DNA of 64,000 nucleotides, taken from contig NZ_JACZCQ010000002.1 in NCBI RefSeq assembly GCF_014904705.1, positions 186,001 through 250,000 on the forward strand, read 5' to 3'. How positions within the stretch are numbered: the stretch's first letter is position 1; the number at the start of each line of letters is the position of its first letter. The position numbers and the translations under genes are program-made. The notes beneath the pieces were generated by a model that was not told where the DNA came from, made no database searches, and worked only from the letters and a program-made list of their open reading frames with translations. Below, one piece after another: positions 47,544 through 56,580 of the stretch. Source of the DNA: Nisaea sediminum. Lineage in GTDB: Bacteria > Pseudomonadota > Alphaproteobacteria > Thalassobaculales > Thalassobaculaceae.

Positions 47544-48683
47544 TCAGTGGCGCGGAGCGACACTCCGCTCCACCAGCGCCATGAACCGGCGTGTCGGTCC
47601 GTCGTGGTACGGTGTCAGGACACCGCCGTCGAACGCGCTCGAGGCACGCCCTTTCTGCATCCGCTCGACCACGTCGATGTCTTCCATAAAAACCTCAACC
47701 CATCCTTCGAGGAGCTGGTCGCGGATCTCCGCATAGTCCGTTTCGAGGGCGGTCTCGTCCGCGAAATAGATATGCAGGTCCTCGACAGTCCGGCCCTGCC
47801 CGTCCGGGCGCACGATGATCCCGAACAGATGGTCGCGCTGCACGCCGAGCATCAGGTTCGGGTAGACGACCGGGTACTCGCCGCAACGGTCGGACGTCTC
47901 GTCGAGATCGGGAAAGGCCGGAAGCTGGCGTCCGCCGATCCCGCCAGGACGGTAATTCGCCGTCACCTGTCCGAAGATGTAAGGCGCGACATCGATCTGG
48001 CCGTGGATGTCGAGAGGCGAGACGCGGTTCAGCTCCGGATGCACCCAAGGCAGATGATAGCTCTCCAGATAGTTCTCCATGGCGAGCTTCCAGTTCGCCC
48101 GCAGCGAGAAGCTCTTCCCGAATCCATATGAGAGGCGGGAGAAATCGTATTTCGACCAGCGCGCCGTCAGAGGCGCCATGACCTCCTCAAGCGCCTCCGC
48201 CACTCCCGAGAGGTCGACAAAGACGAAATCGAGCCACTTTGCCGTACGCACCGGCCGGAGCCCGAGCTTCGACTTGTCTATTGCCGGACACTCATGCCGG
48301 TCGGGTCCGCCGACAAAGGGGGTGCGCAGGAGCTTTCCGTCGTGACCATAGGTCCAGGAATGGTAGGGGCAGCGCAATCCGGCCTGACGCTTCATCGGTT
48401 CGGTCACGAGAAGAACGCCGCGGTGGCTGCAGACATTGTGAAATCCGCTGATTTCACCGGCCTTGTCCCGCACCAGGACCAGCGGCTGCCCGCCGACATC
48501 GACCGGCAAGACATCGCCCGGGTCCGGAACCTGTGCGCCGACAGCCACACAGACCCAGTTTCTTCCGAAAATGCCGTCGGCTTCTTTAATATGCGCGGTT
48601 AATTCCGAGTAATACCTGTTGCCGAGTCCCCGCCCCGCAGGCGCGTTCGGACTGAATACTTCCGGCAGATCCTGTTCGGACAT
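47544..48683 (-). CDS. Rieske-type aromatic ring-hydroxylating oxygenase alpha subunit
   Basis: This is a 379-residue Rieske non-heme iron oxygenase alpha subunit. The [2Fe-2S] ligands are C85, H87 (CSHRG) and C105, H108 (CPYHSW), and the mononuclear iron site follows in ENYLESYHLPWVH. A GTG four codons upstream is possible; I prefer the ATG at 48683, with GGGGG upstream. No ferredoxin or reductase gene lies nearby, so electron partners are elsewhere. The substrate (for example an aromatic acid or a quaternary amine such as carnitine or stachydrine) is undetermined. Confidence 0.87.
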   Translation of the reverse strand: MSEQDLPEVFSPNAPAGRGLGNRYYSELTAHIKEADGIFGRNWVCVAVGAQVPDPGDVLPVDVGGQPLVLVRDKAGEISGFHNVCSHRGVLLVTEPMKRQAGLRCPYHSWTYGHDGKLLRTPFVGGPDRHECPAIDKSKLGLRPVRTAKWLDFVFVDLSGVAEALEEVMAPLTARWSKYDFSRLSYGFGKSFSLRANWKLAMENYLESYHLPWVHPELNRVSPLDIHGQIDVAPYIFGQVTANYRPGGIGGRQLPAFPDLDETSDRCGEYPVVYPNLMLGVQRDHLFGIIVRPDGQGRTVEDLHIYFADETALETDYAEIRDQLLEGWVEVFMEDIDVVERMQKGRASSAFDGGVLTPYHDGPTRRFMALVERSVAPRH

Positions 48684-48953
48684 GCAGACCCCCACATCGT
48701 TATTTTGCGAACACTCTATTACGCCGGCCCTGTGACAGTCTGTCGCGGAGACGACCGATCACCCCAAGAAAACCGTCAACTTCTGAATAAAACAGTCAGG
48801 TCTCCACCCTGGGCGAAAAAACAAATTAAATGCAGTGTTTAAGTATCTTTTAAATCTTGTGCGCGAAAACCGCCTTCGGAAAACACCGGACCAAAACTTA
48901 ACAAGGTCCGACGTATTCAAGACCGAATGAAACAGAACCCGAAGGAAACAAAC
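48684..48953. promoter_or_regulatory. AT-rich divergent promoter region
   Basis: This 270-base gap between the Rieske oxygenase (minus) and the Cache-domain protein (plus) is much richer in A and T than the coding DNA around it, especially at 48815-48905. It must hold promoters for both genes. I see no clear operator, riboswitch or small gene in it. Confidence 0.4.
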
Positions 48954-51163: not shown

Positions 51164-51184
51164 TCCATGCTTCACTTTTGTCGG

Positions 51185-51218
51185 ATGCGGCCGGATTTCG
51201 ATCCGGCCGCATTCTTTT
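51185..51218 (+). terminator. Rho-independent terminator after chemoreceptor
   Basis: A 12-base-pair stem (51185-51196 with 51201-51212) with a TTCG tetraloop is followed by TTCTTTT. It should end the chemoreceptor transcript and isolate the radical SAM gene that follows. Confidence 0.92.
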
Positions 51219-51413
51219 GCACGCCGGCTTCACGCAACCATAAGATTGCGTCGCATCCATTTATGCATTCTATTTTAAGGTGTAATCGAGCGCCTTTGAG
51301 AGTTTGCTTTAATTCCCTATTTTGAGCCAATTTTTTGCGGTTTTCATTCGTTAACTAAGTAATCAAAAGAGACAAATCGTGTGATACACTTCAATTTTTC
51401 GGGGAGTATCGCC

Positions 51414-52790
51414 ATGCATGTACAAGAAATTCCCACGTCCTTCTACCGCTCCATCTACCAAACCTCGGAGAACGTCTACCTCTCCCGGTCCGCAGAAGCG
51501 GGATCAGGCGAGGAACTGACTGGACGCATCGATGACATCCTGGACAGGCGCCTCGCGACGACAGGGGGATTGTCGTTGAGCGATGCCGCAGAGCTTTTGC
51601 TGCTGGTACGCGAACACCCGCTTCCGGAAGCGCGCAAGGCGGTGAAGGACGCCGCCCGGGCCCTCCGGCACCGGACCTTCGGCCACGGCGTCGCCACCAT
51701 GGTGCCGATCGAGGTCACCTCCTTCTGCTCCAGCACCTGCCGGTTCTGCGGCTGGCGCGCGGATAACAAGGCAATGGCGCGCATGGCGATCACCGGCGCG
51801 GCGATCCGTGAACAGGCAAAGGTTCTCGCCGCCAAGGGCTTCTCCCATTTCGAGATCGCCGGTGGAGACGACCTGAAATTCCTGAAAGACAATCTCGCCG
51901 AGTTGATCCGCGGCCTGAAACAGGAGACCAGCGCGGTCAATCCCGACGCCCGGGTCTCGCTCTGCCTCGTGCCGATGCACCAGGAACATTACGAGGCGCT
52001 GCGCGATGACGGTCTCGACTGCGTGCTGACCTGGCAGGAGACCTACAAGGAAGACCTCTATAATCACCATATCCCGGCCGGACCGAAGGCCTGGGGGATC
52101 GATCACGATCTCCGGCTGCAGAAGAAGAACGACAACAGTGTCGGCTGGCTGCACCGGATGCAGTCACAGGAACTGGCGATCCGAGCCGGGTTGCAGGCCG
52201 GTCTCGGCACCATGATCGGACTGGCCGAGATCGCCGAGGCGGACATCCTCTCGGTGATCATGCACGGCCAGAAGCTGATCGAGCATTATGCCGATACGAT
52301 TCAGCCGCTGATCATCGGCATGCCGGCGTGGAACGCAATCCCGACAGAGGAGACCGACCGCCGCGCGACCGAGCGTCCGCCCTTCGAGGTTGAGCAGAAT
52401 TTCGAGCTGCTCTCGGCGATCTACCTGCTGGCCTTCCCGGACAATCACGCCTGGGTCTTTGCCAACGGGCGGGTGAATCCGACGGTGCAGACCGACTGCG
52501 TCGAGACCGCCTCCTTCTTCACCTCGACGCTGGTCCAGATCGCGCCCGGCGCCTATCTCGGCCTCGACGGCAACAAGGTGCCGCGCGATATGTTCGACCG
52601 GGTGCGCGGACTTCCCGACGGCGCTCTCTCGCGGGACGAGATCCTATCCGGTGAGCAGTTCGTGCATTACCTCGACAGCCACGAGAATTTCGTCGCCGGC
52701 TTCGAGGCGCGCGGCATGAACGTCATCCCGGACCGGGCGAAGCTGCTCCACGCCGATCCGCCGCACCCGGCCGTCGTGGCGGCGGAATAG
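51414..52790 (+). CDS. ThiH/HydG-like radical SAM enzyme of unknown substrate
   Basis: This is a 458-residue radical AdoMet protein. The cluster cysteines are C105, C109 and C112 (SFCSSTCRFCGW). WQETY (207-211) and HHIPAGPK (218-225) are the landmarks of the ThiH/HydG/NosL aromatic-amino-acid lyase branch and not of BioB. The C-terminal auxiliary [4Fe-4S] motif of HydG (CTACYR type) is not seen. No thiamine, hydrogenase or thiopeptide gene adjoins, so the substrate is open. The ATG at 51414 has GGGGAG seven bases upstream; an in-frame GTG 11 codons earlier is less likely. Its partner gene follows after 23 bases. Confidence 0.8.
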   Translation: MHVQEIPTSFYRSIYQTSENVYLSRSAEAGSGEELTGRIDDILDRRLATTGGLSLSDAAELLLLVREHPLPEARKAVKDAARALRHRTFGHGVATMVPIEVTSFCSSTCRFCGWRADNKAMARMAITGAAIREQAKVLAAKGFSHFEIAGGDDLKFLKDNLAELIRGLKQETSAVNPDARVSLCLVPMHQEHYEALRDDGLDCVLTWQETYKEDLYNHHIPAGPKAWGIDHDLRLQKKNDNSVGWLHRMQSQELAIRAGLQAGLGTMIGLAEIAEADILSVIMHGQKLIEHYADTIQPLIIGMPAWNAIPTEETDRRATERPPFEVEQNFELLSAIYLLAFPDNHAWVFANGRVNPTVQTDCVETASFFTSTLVQIAPGAYLGLDGNKVPRDMFDRVRGLPDGALSRDEILSGEQFVHYLDSHENFVAGFEARGMNVIPDRAKLLHADPPHPAVVAAE

Positions 52791-52813
52791 CACCCCGCCG
52801 AGGCCTTCCGCCC

Positions 52814-53758
52814 ATGCTGAAACCGCTCTTCCGGCAGACGACCTGCGACCGTCTGCCAGGTCCCGAAGCGGGGCGCGTCGACGCCCGCGCCACCTGGACC
52901 AGGCTGGCGCCAACCCATGCATATGCGGGAGCGGATGCCCCCGACACGCATGCGCTCGATCTGGTCACCTGTGTCAAATCCGGCGAGCCGGGGCTGGTGC
53001 ACAATCACGGCCATGCCTGGATTCGTCTGGTCTGGCCGGACGGACGCTATTGCAGCCTCGGCTTCTTTCCGGACGAAAGTACCGGCGTCGAGCCGGATGA
53101 GTATCCAGGCCTCACCATGCCGGGCATGCTGCTCAGCCCGGACAAGTACGACCGCGTTGGATGGAGCGACCGGGTGACGCGAATCCCGCTCACCCCTGCC
53201 GGGTTCGCAGACATCGTCTCCTGGCTAGAGGCCCTGCAGGCTGGCCGGACCGGCGGCAGTCTCGCCTTCGACCTCGTGGACAGGAGCTGCGTCGGCTTCG
53301 TCGTCCGCGCCGCCGCCCGGGCCGGTACGGACGTGACAGCGGACATGTCGCCAAGCCGCTTTCTGCTCGACCACCCGGTCCTGCGCCCTTTCAGACATCT
53401 TCCGCCCCCGCCCCGGCGGCTCCGGCAGGCGGGCTACAATCTCGTGCTCGCCTGTCTCGGCGGCCGCCTGAGACTCGAAAGACAATGGGTCCGGCGGGCG
53501 GACGGCGAAGTCGCAATAGAGAACATCCGGGGCTTTCGTCCGGTTTTTGCGAGTTGGCACGAGGTCCTCACCCGCCCGCTGCCCTTCTATCATGTCCGCG
53601 GCATGAGAGACTGGCAGGAACGGTCGGACGGCCTTCTCTCAGGCCTTTCCCTCCGACCGCTTCCAGATCAGGAACGCGATGCAGAGCCACCAGAGCGGAC
53701 CGACGCCCACGCCGCCCGCGCCGGCGGCGATCTTGACCAGACCCTGATCGCCCGATAG
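52814..53758 (+). CDS. Putative permuted papain-like (NlpC/LRAT-fold) protein
   Basis: This is a 314-residue protein without a signal peptide. A histidine in NHGHAWIRLVW (H67) and a cysteine in DRSCVGFVVRAA (C159) are in the His-before-Cys order of permuted NlpC/P60-type thiol hydrolases. The region between (SLGFFPDES...YPGLTMPGMLLSPDKYD) is beta-rich. The last 40 codons run antisense through the 3' end of the next gene. That Pro/Asp-rich tail looks non-conserved, so the ancestral stop may have lain earlier. The short gap to the radical SAM gene implies an operon. The fold call is by motif only. Confidence 0.55.
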   Translation: MLKPLFRQTTCDRLPGPEAGRVDARATWTRLAPTHAYAGADAPDTHALDLVTCVKSGEPGLVHNHGHAWIRLVWPDGRYCSLGFFPDESTGVEPDEYPGLTMPGMLLSPDKYDRVGWSDRVTRIPLTPAGFADIVSWLEALQAGRTGGSLAFDLVDRSCVGFVVRAAARAGTDVTADMSPSRFLLDHPVLRPFRHLPPPPRRLRQAGYNLVLACLGGRLRLERQWVRRADGEVAIENIRGFRPVFASWHEVLTRPLPFYHVRGMRDWQERSDGLLSGLSLRPLPDQERDAEPPERTDAHAARAGGDLDQTLIAR

Positions 53759-54304
53759 CAGCCCCCCGAAGGCGACCAGATAGAGCAGAGCCGCGACGAG
53801 ACCGAGCAGGCCGACGGCGCGCGGCAGAAGACCGCGCACCAGCCCGGCACCGTTGACGAGCGCGAGGAAAAGCCCGACGCAGCCGAAGATCAGCCATCCC
53901 TGCGTGTCCAGGCTGATCGAGAAGGACAGGATCGCATCCCGAACGTCCTGGCTGCCGGCGGCGACCGCGGCGGCGCGCCGCCCTTCCCCGCCGAGAAGGC
54001 GGAAGTAAGTGATCGCGGTCACCGCGTAGCCAAGCAGACCGAGCAGGCAGCCCCACTGCACCGGATCGCCCGTCCGTGCGCCCGCCATGCGGCCGAGTGC
54101 GGGGATTACCCCGATGGCGAAAAGCGCCGCGAGGCCGAAACAGGCAAGAAAGCCGGATCGCTCGACGGGCTGCGCGGCGAGCGCCTGCCAGTAAGCGTCC
54201 GATCCCGCCGGATGGGCCGAGGACGGATCCACGAGAAAGAAGATCCCGGTTCCGAGATAGGCCAGCGCACAGGCGGCGGCGAGAAAGGCGGCGAAACGGC
54301 TCAT
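53639..54304 (-). CDS. Multi-helix membrane protein of unknown function
   Basis: This is a 221-residue protein with about six hydrophobic helices. It starts with MSRFAAFLAAACALAYLGTGIFFLVDP and ends with a WLCIAFLIWKRSEGKA tail. It resembles small uncharacterised integral membrane proteins, with no recognisable catalytic motif. Its start overlaps the stop of the LysE-type gene upstream, so the two are coupled. Its 3' end overlaps the opposite-strand gene by 120 bases. Confidence 0.6.
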   Translation of the reverse strand: MSRFAAFLAAACALAYLGTGIFFLVDPSSAHPAGSDAYWQALAAQPVERSGFLACFGLAALFAIGVIPALGRMAGARTGDPVQWGCLLGLLGYAVTAITYFRLLGGEGRRAAAVAAGSQDVRDAILSFSISLDTQGWLIFGCVGLFLALVNGAGLVRGLLPRAVGLLGLVAALLYLVAFGGLLSGDQGLVKIAAGAGGVGVGPLWWLCIAFLIWKRSEGKA

Positions 54305-54921
54305 GATCCGATAACTCCCATGATCGCGAGTGACAGTGCGACACCGACCAGCAGCAGCGCGTAGACCAGGTTCTGGATCCTGACCGCTTTCGGAGAGTTG
54401 AACCGGGTTGCGAGCCAGGCGCCCCCGGTCAGCCAGGAGAAATGCGAGGCGAGGCTGAAGATCGTCAGCGCGGCGGCGATCTCAAGCGCAACGCGCCAGG
54501 AGGGGCGGCCGGGATCGGCGAACTGGGAGAAGATGACCAGCAGCAATGCCAGCCCCTTGCCGTTCAGCAATTGTACCATCGCCCCCTCGAACAGGCCCGG
54601 TGCCGCGCCCTGCAGCCTCTGGTCCTCGGCCGCTTCAGAGGAGCGGAGGATCTTCCAGGCGAGGAACAGGATGAAGAGCGCCCCCGCGATCTGGATGTAG
54701 TGAAAGGCATCCGGCACCCTTTTCAGCACGCTGGAGAAGCCTGTCCCGACCAGGAAGGCCGGAACAAAGACCATGACGTCCATGCCAATGACGAAGGGGA
54801 TCGAGCGGGCGACACCGAACCTGCCACCCGCGGCCGCGCAGAGCAGGTTGCTCGGCCCCGGACTGAACATCAGCGGGAAAACCATCAGGAACAGCAGCAG
54901 CAAATCCGTCGGCGTGGACAT
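54301..54921 (-). CDS. LysE-family exporter
   Basis: This is a 206-residue LysE/RhtB-type protein with about six helices, N-terminal FPLMFSPGPSNLLCAAAGGRFGVARSIPFVIGMD and FEGAMVQLLNGKGLALLLVIFSQF. The GPSN variant of the family's GP-x-N motif is present. It should export an amino acid or a related solute. It is the first gene of a two-gene unit with the membrane protein above and is divergent from the FAD monooxygenase. Confidence 0.83.
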   Translation of the reverse strand: MSTPTDLLLLFLMVFPLMFSPGPSNLLCAAAGGRFGVARSIPFVIGMDVMVFVPAFLVGTGFSSVLKRVPDAFHYIQIAGALFILFLAWKILRSSEAAEDQRLQGAAPGLFEGAMVQLLNGKGLALLLVIFSQFADPGRPSWRVALEIAAALTIFSLASHFSWLTGGAWLATRFNSPKAVRIQNLVYALLLVGVALSLAIMGVIGS

Positions 54922-55019
54922 CGGTTCTCCGCAGACAGCACCAGATGCTATGTATTATTGGTGGAAGCGACGGTATTGTCATGCAGTGATTGGTGGAGGA
55001 GCGCTGCGGGGGACCCGGC

Positions 55020-56162
55020 ATGTCGGCAGATGGCACGGCACTCATCATCGGCAGCGGCGTCGGCGGCCTCTCCGCCGCGATCGCCCTGTCCCGCATCGGC
55101 GTCGCGTGCGAGATCTTCGAGCGCGGCACCGAGATCGGTCGTGGCGGTACCGGACTCACGCTCTGGCCGAACGCCCTCCGTGCGCTCGAGAAGCTCGGGA
55201 TCACCCGGAATGTGACGCGCCATGCGGATCCGCTCCAGCGCGGCGAGATCTTCACCTCGAAGGGCCTGCCCCTGACCAGCGTCGATCTTAGCGAGATCAG
55301 CCGCCGTTCCGGCATGCCGCTGATCTGCCTGCGGCGCTCGGATCTCTACGGCGCTCTGCTCGACGCCCTCCCCGACGTTCCGATCCATACCGGCAAGCGC
55401 TGCGTGTCCTGGCGCGAACATGCAGACGGAATCACCGCCCAATTCGAAGATGGCAGTACCGCCACGGGAGACTTTCTCGTCGCGGCGGACGGTATCCGCT
55501 CCCGGCTCCGCCACATCATGCTTGGCGAGGACCCTTTGCGCTATGTCGGCTGGATGACCTGGCGCGGCGTCGCGGACCTGCCACCCGGCACCTTTCCCTC
55601 CGGGCTTTACCGTGAGTTCTTCGGGCGCGGCAGCCGTTTCGGGATCTTCGCGATCCGCGCCGACCGGGTCTACTGGTACGGCACGCTCAGCACCGAGGCC
55701 GATGAACGCGCGCCGGTCGATCCCTCGCACCGCCCGGAGGCACTGGCCCATTTTCGCGACTGGCCGGAACCCGCGGCGACCGTGATCGCCTCGACCGAGG
55801 ACGCAAACTTGGTCCGGACCGGGGTCTATGACACGGAACCGCTGCCGCGCTGGGCCAAAGGGCGGATGGCTGTGCTGGGCGACGCCGCCCACCCGATGAC
55901 GCCGGATCTCGGCCAGGGCGCCTGCCAGGCGATCGAAGACGCGCTCGCCCTCGCCGACTCTGTCGTGGAGGGCGGGGCCGTTCCGGACATTTTGCAGCGA
56001 TACGAGGCGAGAGGTCTCGCGCGCACGCAAGGGCTGGTCGCGCGCTCGCGTCGGGTCGGCAAGATGCGCCAGTGGCGTCATCCCCTGCTGACCGCTCTCC
56101 GCGCCGCGACCATGCGTGCGATCCCGCCGAAGCTGCTGCTGAAGATGTTCGAGACGGACTGA
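55020..56162 (+). CDS. FAD-dependent aromatic monooxygenase (salicylate hydroxylase-like)
   Basis: This is a 380-residue class A flavoprotein hydroxylase. The FAD Rossmann motif IIGSGVGGLSAAIALSRIGV is at the N-terminus, with an ARG-type GLTLWPNALRALEKLG segment. The DG motif follows (FLVAADGIRSRLR), then GD (VLGDAAHPMTPDLGQGACQAIEDA). It should hydroxylate an aromatic acid with NAD(P)H and O2. Upstream codons in frame exist; the ATG at 55020 is preferred. The substrate is not given by neighbours. Confidence 0.88.
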   Translation: MSADGTALIIGSGVGGLSAAIALSRIGVACEIFERGTEIGRGGTGLTLWPNALRALEKLGITRNVTRHADPLQRGEIFTSKGLPLTSVDLSEISRRSGMPLICLRRSDLYGALLDALPDVPIHTGKRCVSWREHADGITAQFEDGSTATGDFLVAADGIRSRLRHIMLGEDPLRYVGWMTWRGVADLPPGTFPSGLYREFFGRGSRFGIFAIRADRVYWYGTLSTEADERAPVDPSHRPEALAHFRDWPEPAATVIASTEDANLVRTGVYDTEPLPRWAKGRMAVLGDAAHPMTPDLGQGACQAIEDALALADSVVEGGAVPDILQRYEARGLARTQGLVARSRRVGKMRQWRHPLLTALRAATMRAIPPKLLLKMFETD

Positions 56163-56178
56163 AGCCCGGGCGCGTGCC

Positions 56179-56580
56179 CTACTCGTCCTTCTTCTCGACC
56201 GGCCCTTCCGCCTCGATCCAGGCACCGAGACCGCCCTCGAGATGAGCGACGTTCTCGAGGCCCATATCCTGCGCCGTCTTGGCCGAAAGCGCGGAGCGCC
56301 AGCTCGCGGCACAATAGAAGACGAAGGTCTTGTCCTCGCCGAAGAAGTCCTTGAAGTAGGGGCTCGCCGGGTCGATCCAGAATTCGAGCATGCCGCGCGG
56401 CACGTGGCGCGCGCCGGGGATGCGGCCGGTCTTGGCGAGCTCGCGCACGTCGCGCACGTCGATGAAGGTCACATCGTCGCGTCCGACCCAGGATTTCGCT
56501 TCCTCGACGCCGAGAATGCGTACCTGCTCGTTGGCTTCCGCCACCATGGATTCGACGGTCTTGATCTGTTTGGCGCCCAT
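56179..56580 (-). CDS. Rhodanese-domain protein
   Basis: This is a 133-residue single rhodanese domain with the active-site cysteine in FYCAASWRSAL, the usual Asp/Arg positions in FIDVRDVRELAKTG, and HLEGGLGAW near the end. It may transfer sulfur. The ATG at 56580, with GGGAGAG upstream, is chosen; the frame is open 46 codons further but in a Pro/Arg-rich stretch. It is monocistronic. Confidence 0.88.
   Translation of the reverse strand: MGAKQIKTVESMVAEANEQVRILGVEEAKSWVGRDDVTFIDVRDVRELAKTGRIPGARHVPRGMLEFWIDPASPYFKDFFGEDKTFVFYCAASWRSALSAKTAQDMGLENVAHLEGGLGAWIEAEGPVEKKDE

Follow-up and report, generated by a model that had tools for sequence, protein, structure and literature searches.

Our sequence and comparative data indicated that a radical SAM enzyme and its adjoining Cys/His partner protein in Nisaea sediminum lie, with a probability of roughly two in three, at the heart of a set of five genes for biosynthesis and export that was acquired laterally and has an amino-acid-derived product. 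A new clade of ThiH/HydG-type radical SAM enzymes and a recurring small biosynthetic-export cluster very probably exist, and the likely output of the cluster is an exported small molecule derived from an (aromatic) amino acid. The pair is regarded as a fragment of a recurring cluster because the same gene families recur beside orthologous enzymes; at the sequence level, the radical SAM enzyme and the Cys/His partner form a co-occurring unit with a LysE exporter, a flavin monooxygenase, and a DUF4386-like protein. The sequence-only reading of this DNA had seen no known pathway context; this view was incomplete, as the genes for the exporter, the flavin monooxygenase, and the DUF4386-like protein accompany the pair in this five-gene set. 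No description of the clade or the cluster was found in NCBIfam, Pfam (beyond Radical_SAM), or open-access papers; no published biochemistry on any clade member was found either.

The N. sediminum genome comprises 5.0 Mb, and the window analyzed here, a stretch of 64,000 nucleotides, corresponds to positions 186001-250000 of contig NZ_JACZCQ010000002.1. The five genes occupy a species-specific insert (Table 1). Genome alignment revealed that the receptor and rhodanese genes flanking the insert are adjacent in all four congeners (G001-G004), in which the whole of 51165-56184 is absent, and in the closest one (G004) the two alignments were separated by only 66 bp. The five-gene set is thus a recent gain of N. 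sediminum. No exact direct repeat of at least 9 bases was found at the two ends of the insert, and the base composition of its genes resembles the rest of the window, whereas the 250 bp upstream have a GC content of 43%. The coordinates of the enzyme and partner genes, including the 23 bases between them, were confirmed, and the enzyme start at 51414 was consistent with homologues. The partner gene and the DUF4386-like gene overlap convergently by approximately 120 bp. No Rfam family was found in the part of the window searched or in the Evansella locus (L107) described below. A second small species-specific insert, carrying a Rieske-type oxygenase gene (47544-48695), lies near the first; the gene is absent from the corresponding site of the closest congener, which spans 227 bp versus approximately 1290 bp.

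Table 1. Positions of the insert, its genes, and selected codons and motifs, numbered within the window
Feature	Position	Strand	Remarks
Species-specific insert, ~5 kb, five genes	51165..56184	.	between chemotaxis-receptor gene (upstream) and rhodanese gene (downstream)
Radical SAM enzyme, 'WQETY' clade, sister to ThiH/HydG	51414..52790	+	458 aa
CX3CX2C [4Fe-4S]/SAM motif, CSSTCRFC, residues 105-112	51726..51749	+	
WQETYx4Yx2HxPAGPK motif, served as search pattern	52032..52088	+	
Codon of Arg353, aligned with ThiH substrate-binding Arg300	52470..52472	+	
Partner, putative thiol acyltransferase/amidase, permuted papain-like (H-then-NC)	52814..53758	+	314 aa
Codon of invariant His67 (GHAW)	53012..53014	+	
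Codon of invariant Cys159 (RSCVGF), predicted nucleophile	53288..53290	+	
DUF4386-like membrane protein, cluster-conserved	53639..54304	-	homologues 42-56% identical adjoin enzyme in L098, L099, L100, L102
LysE-type amino-acid exporter	54301..54921	-	Pfam PF01810, 2.5e-20
Flavin-dependent aromatic hydroxylase-type monooxygenase	54990..56162	+	PF01494, 1.2e-29

To trace relatives, a hand-made DNA pattern (WQE-x-Y-x4-(F/Y)-x6-G-x-K) was used, which yielded 34 contigs or loci, mostly true relatives; the pattern demands Trp before QETY, so that W-bearing members alone were sampled. Enzyme orthologues with 59-69% identity were found in Roseibium suaedae and Roseibium litorale (69%), Labrys sp. KNU-23 (61%), and the gammaproteobacterium IMCC1989 and a Comamonadaceae MAG (59-60%). 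Across the six type I loci, which are few and all belong to one clade, the partner and the LysE exporter lay beside the enzyme in every case; five of the loci have the DUF4386-like membrane protein, and five have an oxygenase (a flavin enzyme in four and a P450 in one). In the two Roseibium loci, the genes for the radical SAM enzyme, the monooxygenase, the partner, LysE, and the DUF4386-like protein all point the same way, and Labrys and the window share these five genes in a rearranged order; the Comamonadaceae locus reads P450, DUF4386-like, radical SAM, partner, and LysE, and the IMCC1989 locus has a divergent LysE gene, then the radical SAM gene, the partner gene, and a gene for an MMPL-type transporter. 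The linkage of the pair in other genomes, which the sequence-only reading had named as a check, was borne out wherever the partner was found: a single partner copy adjoined the enzyme in each of the five further core genomes, and none was found in the other 16 genomes holding an enzyme relative. A search with the partner model across 385 genomes of the class returned the window and two very weak matches (E-values, 3e-4 and 5e-4). The sporadic distribution of the cluster (one of five genomes in the genus of the window; 2 of 45 in Roseibium) would fit a chance gathering of unrelated cargo genes in one insertion hotspot. This reading was already unlikely and retains a very slight probability, as the same families, variously ordered, adjoin the orthologous enzymes of Roseibium, Labrys, IMCC1989, and Comamonadaceae, and no strong partner HMM match lacking the enzyme was present in the 384 other genomes of the class.

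Besides the window, enzyme searches of 60 related genomes, 385 genomes of the class, and 398 of the phylum gave only ThiH-, HydG-, and HydE/PylB-type or weaker matches. Plasmids and phages contained no close relative of the radical SAM enzyme, and no partner was found on plasmids. Single-protein scans of genome and viral contigs, conducted with 8-residue patterns that are not conserved, gave no match, nor did searches of viral contigs with trial alignments, which served pattern choice and whose rows beyond the first were artificial.

The enzyme had been called ThiH/HydG-like, and this assignment was upheld. The CSSTCRFC, WQETY (from residue 207), and HIPAGPK (from residue 219) segments are present. 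The WQETY...PAGPK stretch was not matched by chance in any of 100 shuffles. Membership of the Radical SAM superfamily (PF04055) is evident from the CX3CX2C motif and the predicted fold, with a PF04055 score of 29.0 against a cut-off of 29.5 that was exceeded in the genome search. The AF2 model (pLDDT, 91) matched structures of HydG, ThiH, NosL, and PylB in Foldseek, and a PDB profile search ranked HydG first (179 bits), followed by ThiH (129), HydE, PylB, and NosL (61). Cysteines occur only at residues 105, 109, 112, 184, 203, and 362, and hence the enzyme has no second cluster motif of the HydG or HydE type, as the sequence-only reading had noted; with Cys362 as the single cysteine beyond residue 203, it lacks the cysteines of the C-terminal auxiliary cluster of HydG.

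A divergent ThiH or HydG serving thiamine or hydrogenase cofactor assembly would share this fold, and all 24 aligned members indeed score on both the ThiH and HydG models (best ThiH E-value of any clade member, 1.5e-49). The scores of the window enzyme, however, lie far under the curated cut-offs of NCBIfam (ThiH, TIGR02351: 98.2 versus 380 bits; HydG, TIGR03955: 62.5 versus 312), and its score on the NosL model (TIGR04158) was 21 bits versus 400. In a tree of 51 proteins, with long branches flagged, the WQETY clade (n=20) formed one branch with support of 100/98, apart from the ThiH, HydG, and HydE/PylB samples. The tree comparison proposed in the sequence-only reading was covered for ThiH and HydG, with HydE/PylB in addition, whereas NosL, for which no sequence was at hand, CofH, and BioB lay outside the tree. 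Membership of the ThiH or HydG family is refuted for the samples in the tree. The replacement of the Arg306 that binds the tyrosine phenolate in ThiH, the lack of the HydG C-terminal cluster, and the absence of thiamine or hydrogenase genes among the neighbors examined, which agrees with what had been read from the sequence, further reduce a cofactor-assembly role to a very improbable one. Relative to ThiH (2-iminoacetate synthase, a tyrosine lyase), the enzyme of the new clade shares the fold (PDB 7pd2; TM-score by target length, 0.85), CX3CX2C, QETY, and GxK, but it has an insert of approximately 15 residues after GPK and a C-terminal GEQFxHY region. With HydG, the tyrosine lyase of [FeFe]-hydrogenase maturation, it shares the QETY...GPK motif, but not the auxiliary [4Fe-4S] motif. 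NosL, a tryptophan lyase (3-methyl-2-indolic acid synthase), has the same fold (4r33; E-value, 5e-17), a substrate-binding Arg, and likewise no Arg306 equivalent, although its sequence match is weak and no peptide-antibiotic genes accompany the window enzyme.

The substrate pocket was compared with that of L-Tyr-bound ThiH, in which Arg306 and a one-residue insertion have been named as tyrosine markers, Arg306 being absent from NosL (PMC9046217). In the alignment, Arg353 is the near-invariant equivalent of the amino-acid-binding Arg300 of ThiH, and Arg306 is replaced by Gln359. Of the tyrosine pocket residues Thr299, Ser318, Ser321, and Arg306, Ser318 (Ser371 in the window enzyme) alone is retained, with Thr299 and Ser321 changed to Gly352 and Val374, respectively, and Glu158 to Cys184. 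Retention of the Arg300 equivalent together with the replacement of Arg306 suggests that the substrate is likely a free amino acid, the side chain of which is probably not that of tyrosine. Tryptophan is the leading candidate, short of being the probable one, because Arg306 is absent, as in NosL, and because trpBA genes occur in the Evansella row, a hint from one genome. Position 352 carries Gly in each of the six enzymes with a partner and Cys in all 14 partner-less clade members covering it, a difference that amounts to a single change on the tree.

The partner protein has no Pfam match. H67 (GHA) and C159 are invariant among the six partner homologues, with His preceding Cys, so that this part of the permuted papain-like proposal stood; the fold match itself was weak, the AF2 model having moderate confidence (pLDDT, 70) and its best Foldseek hit, TseH, a probability of 0.97 with an E-value of 0.02 (TM-score by target length, 0.42), followed by Aichivirus 2A. 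A distant relative of the partner gave below-cut-off scores on the LRAT, Lnb_N, PPPDE, and TseH models. A permuted papain-like fold of the partner is thus weakly supported by modeling. The protein resembles TseH and LRAT-type (H-NC) proteins in its GHAW and NC motifs, but it differs from them in matching no Pfam family, in its own PDESTG and PGMLLxPDKYDR blocks, and in adjoining a radical SAM enzyme. A radical SAM enzyme, a cysteine-peptidase-like partner, and an exporter constitute a common RiPP layout, and the three present here could accordingly be read as a system in which the enzyme modifies a peptide and the partner is its protease. We consider this improbable: the closest structures are free-amino-acid lyases rather than SPASM enzymes, the Arg responsible for free-amino-acid binding is retained, and LysE family members export amino acids. 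Moreover, no conserved small ORF that could encode a precursor peptide was found upstream of the enzyme in the type I loci compared, except for similarity between two close Roseibium species, and the peptide processing suggested earlier was likewise left without support.

The DUF4386-like homologue of Roseibium exceeds the DUF4386 cut-off, and the window protein has no Pfam match. The flavin monooxygenase, orthologues of which (58-59%) adjoin the enzyme in L098, L099, and L100, reached 263 bits on an HpxO-like model (cut-off, 500) and also resembles 3-hydroxybenzoate 6-hydroxylase. Both families are catabolic, which could point to a cluster degrading an aromatic amino acid or a related compound; the exporter in every type I locus, the absence of a ring-cleavage or CoA gene from the insert, and the ligases (ATP-grasp, GCS2) carried by relatives leave such a catabolic role with only an outside chance.

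The clade extends to Pseudomonadota, Cyanobacteriota, Bacillota, Bdellovibrionota, Myxococcota, and Sumerlaeota. The enzyme of Plectonema radiosum shows approximately 60% identity over part of its length in the first locus and 55% over the full length; two proteobacterial/deltaproteobacterial MAGs and a Bdellovibrionaceae MAG follow with 41-45%, and Evansella, Sinorhizobium terangae, Bradyrhizobium, Azorhizobium, a Chromatiales MAG, another Deltaproteobacteria MAG, and Sumerlaeota with approximately 33-38%. An amide-type ligase and/or an exporter lies beside clade relatives. The Bdellovibrionaceae MAG and an uncultured-proteobacterium MAG carry tightly packed radical SAM, ATP-grasp, EamA exporter, periplasmic binding protein, and histidine kinase genes; the row is found without its EamA gene in a Deltaproteobacteria MAG (L110) and in L126, another Bdellovibrionales genome, and a further MAG (L104) has the ATP-grasp gene with a kinase gene approximately 6 kb away. 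The four rows with binding protein and kinase were located at L105:5639-12205, L106:8577-14591, L110:2-4893, and L126:5986-10770, with EamA in L105 and L106. The row looks like a synthesis-and-sensing unit. In LuxP/LuxQ-type sensing, a periplasmic binding protein acts with a histidine kinase, and the ATP-grasp relatives alone show, by analogy, a comparable succession of binding protein and kinase, but their binding protein belongs to the Peripla_BP_6 family and the genes stand in one row with synthesis enzymes. In Plectonema, the neighbors of the enzyme are a GCS2-type ligase and a MATE exporter. Among the approximately ten genes of the Evansella row are those for a class III aminotransferase, a glutamine amidotransferase, and a PLP gamma-type enzyme, and the row ends with trpB (595 bits; cut-off, 392) and trpA (194; cut-off, 102). 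The row contains no trpEDCF genes, and a search for a further trpBA copy through approximately 0.2 of the 4.6 Mb of the Evansella sp. AB-P1 genome gave just one distant PLP-enzyme match with 27% identity. The same row (L107:4384-17678) also contains an Ldh_2/PEP-mutase-like/methyltransferase domain fusion and two similar proteins of 364 and 378 aa.

Taken together with the cluster reading, a route can be proposed in which the radical SAM enzyme would cleave SAM to a 5'-deoxyadenosyl radical, Arg353 would bind a free amino acid by its amino/carboxyl end, and hydrogen abstraction would lead to cleavage or rearrangement of that amino acid, as by ThiH, HydG, and NosL. Such lyase or mutase chemistry appears reasonably probable. 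The partner might then use Cys159 and His67 to form or cleave an acyl or amide linkage on the product, where relatives seem to rely on an ATP-grasp or GCS2 ligase; hydroxylation of the aromatic part would fall to the monooxygenase (or the P450), and export of the product to the LysE protein. Acyl or amide chemistry of the partner is proposed tentatively because, in the tree, the branch of the window sits inside a group of relatives that carry an ATP-grasp or GCS2 ligase; this role is the weakest link of the explanation, the ligase substitution being an analogy. More speculatively, and rather doubtfully at present, the WQETY clade could produce secreted signals of a new class, derived from an amino acid and possibly from tryptophan. 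The ATP-grasp branch would then be self-sensing (synthesis, periplasmic receptor, and sensor kinase in one row; EamA in two of four), and in the branch of the window the same product line would have been rebuilt, with the ATP-dependent ligase giving way to a papain-like acyl-transfer enzyme and with a Cys-to-Gly pocket change next to the substrate Arg. To our knowledge, each known ThiH, HydG, or NosL branch cleaves an aromatic amino acid by a radical reaction of its own, and a further well-supported branch, spread over six phyla and unnamed in NCBIfam, would offer both new radical chemistry and a new small molecule. The size of the five-gene cluster permits its expression as a whole, and a signaling role can be tested directly in those relatives that have a binding protein and kinase.

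Several further loci were encountered. The Sumerlaeota copies sit amid housekeeping genes, and the rhizobial copies have no common neighbor, with some being broken; two Bradyrhizobium copies (L065:2813-4116 and L075:6978-8000) are split or truncated, as if decaying. The Pseudomonas pbo cluster, which combines radical SAM and ATP-grasp proteins, was set aside as a different system because its radical SAM protein is lysine-aminomutase-like. Three Patescibacteria ThiH-like proteins with CPWR instead of CGWR (L088:4153-6027, L082:148-2073, and L074:2267-4146) formed a group separate from the WQETY clade in the tree, each beside a similar protein of approximately 250 aa. In Sinorhizobium terangae (L108:6303-8617), a HemN-like radical SAM gene directly followed by a methyltransferase gene lies beside the enzyme homologue, a pairing that has been described for the cyclopropanase C10P/C10Q (PMC6050322).
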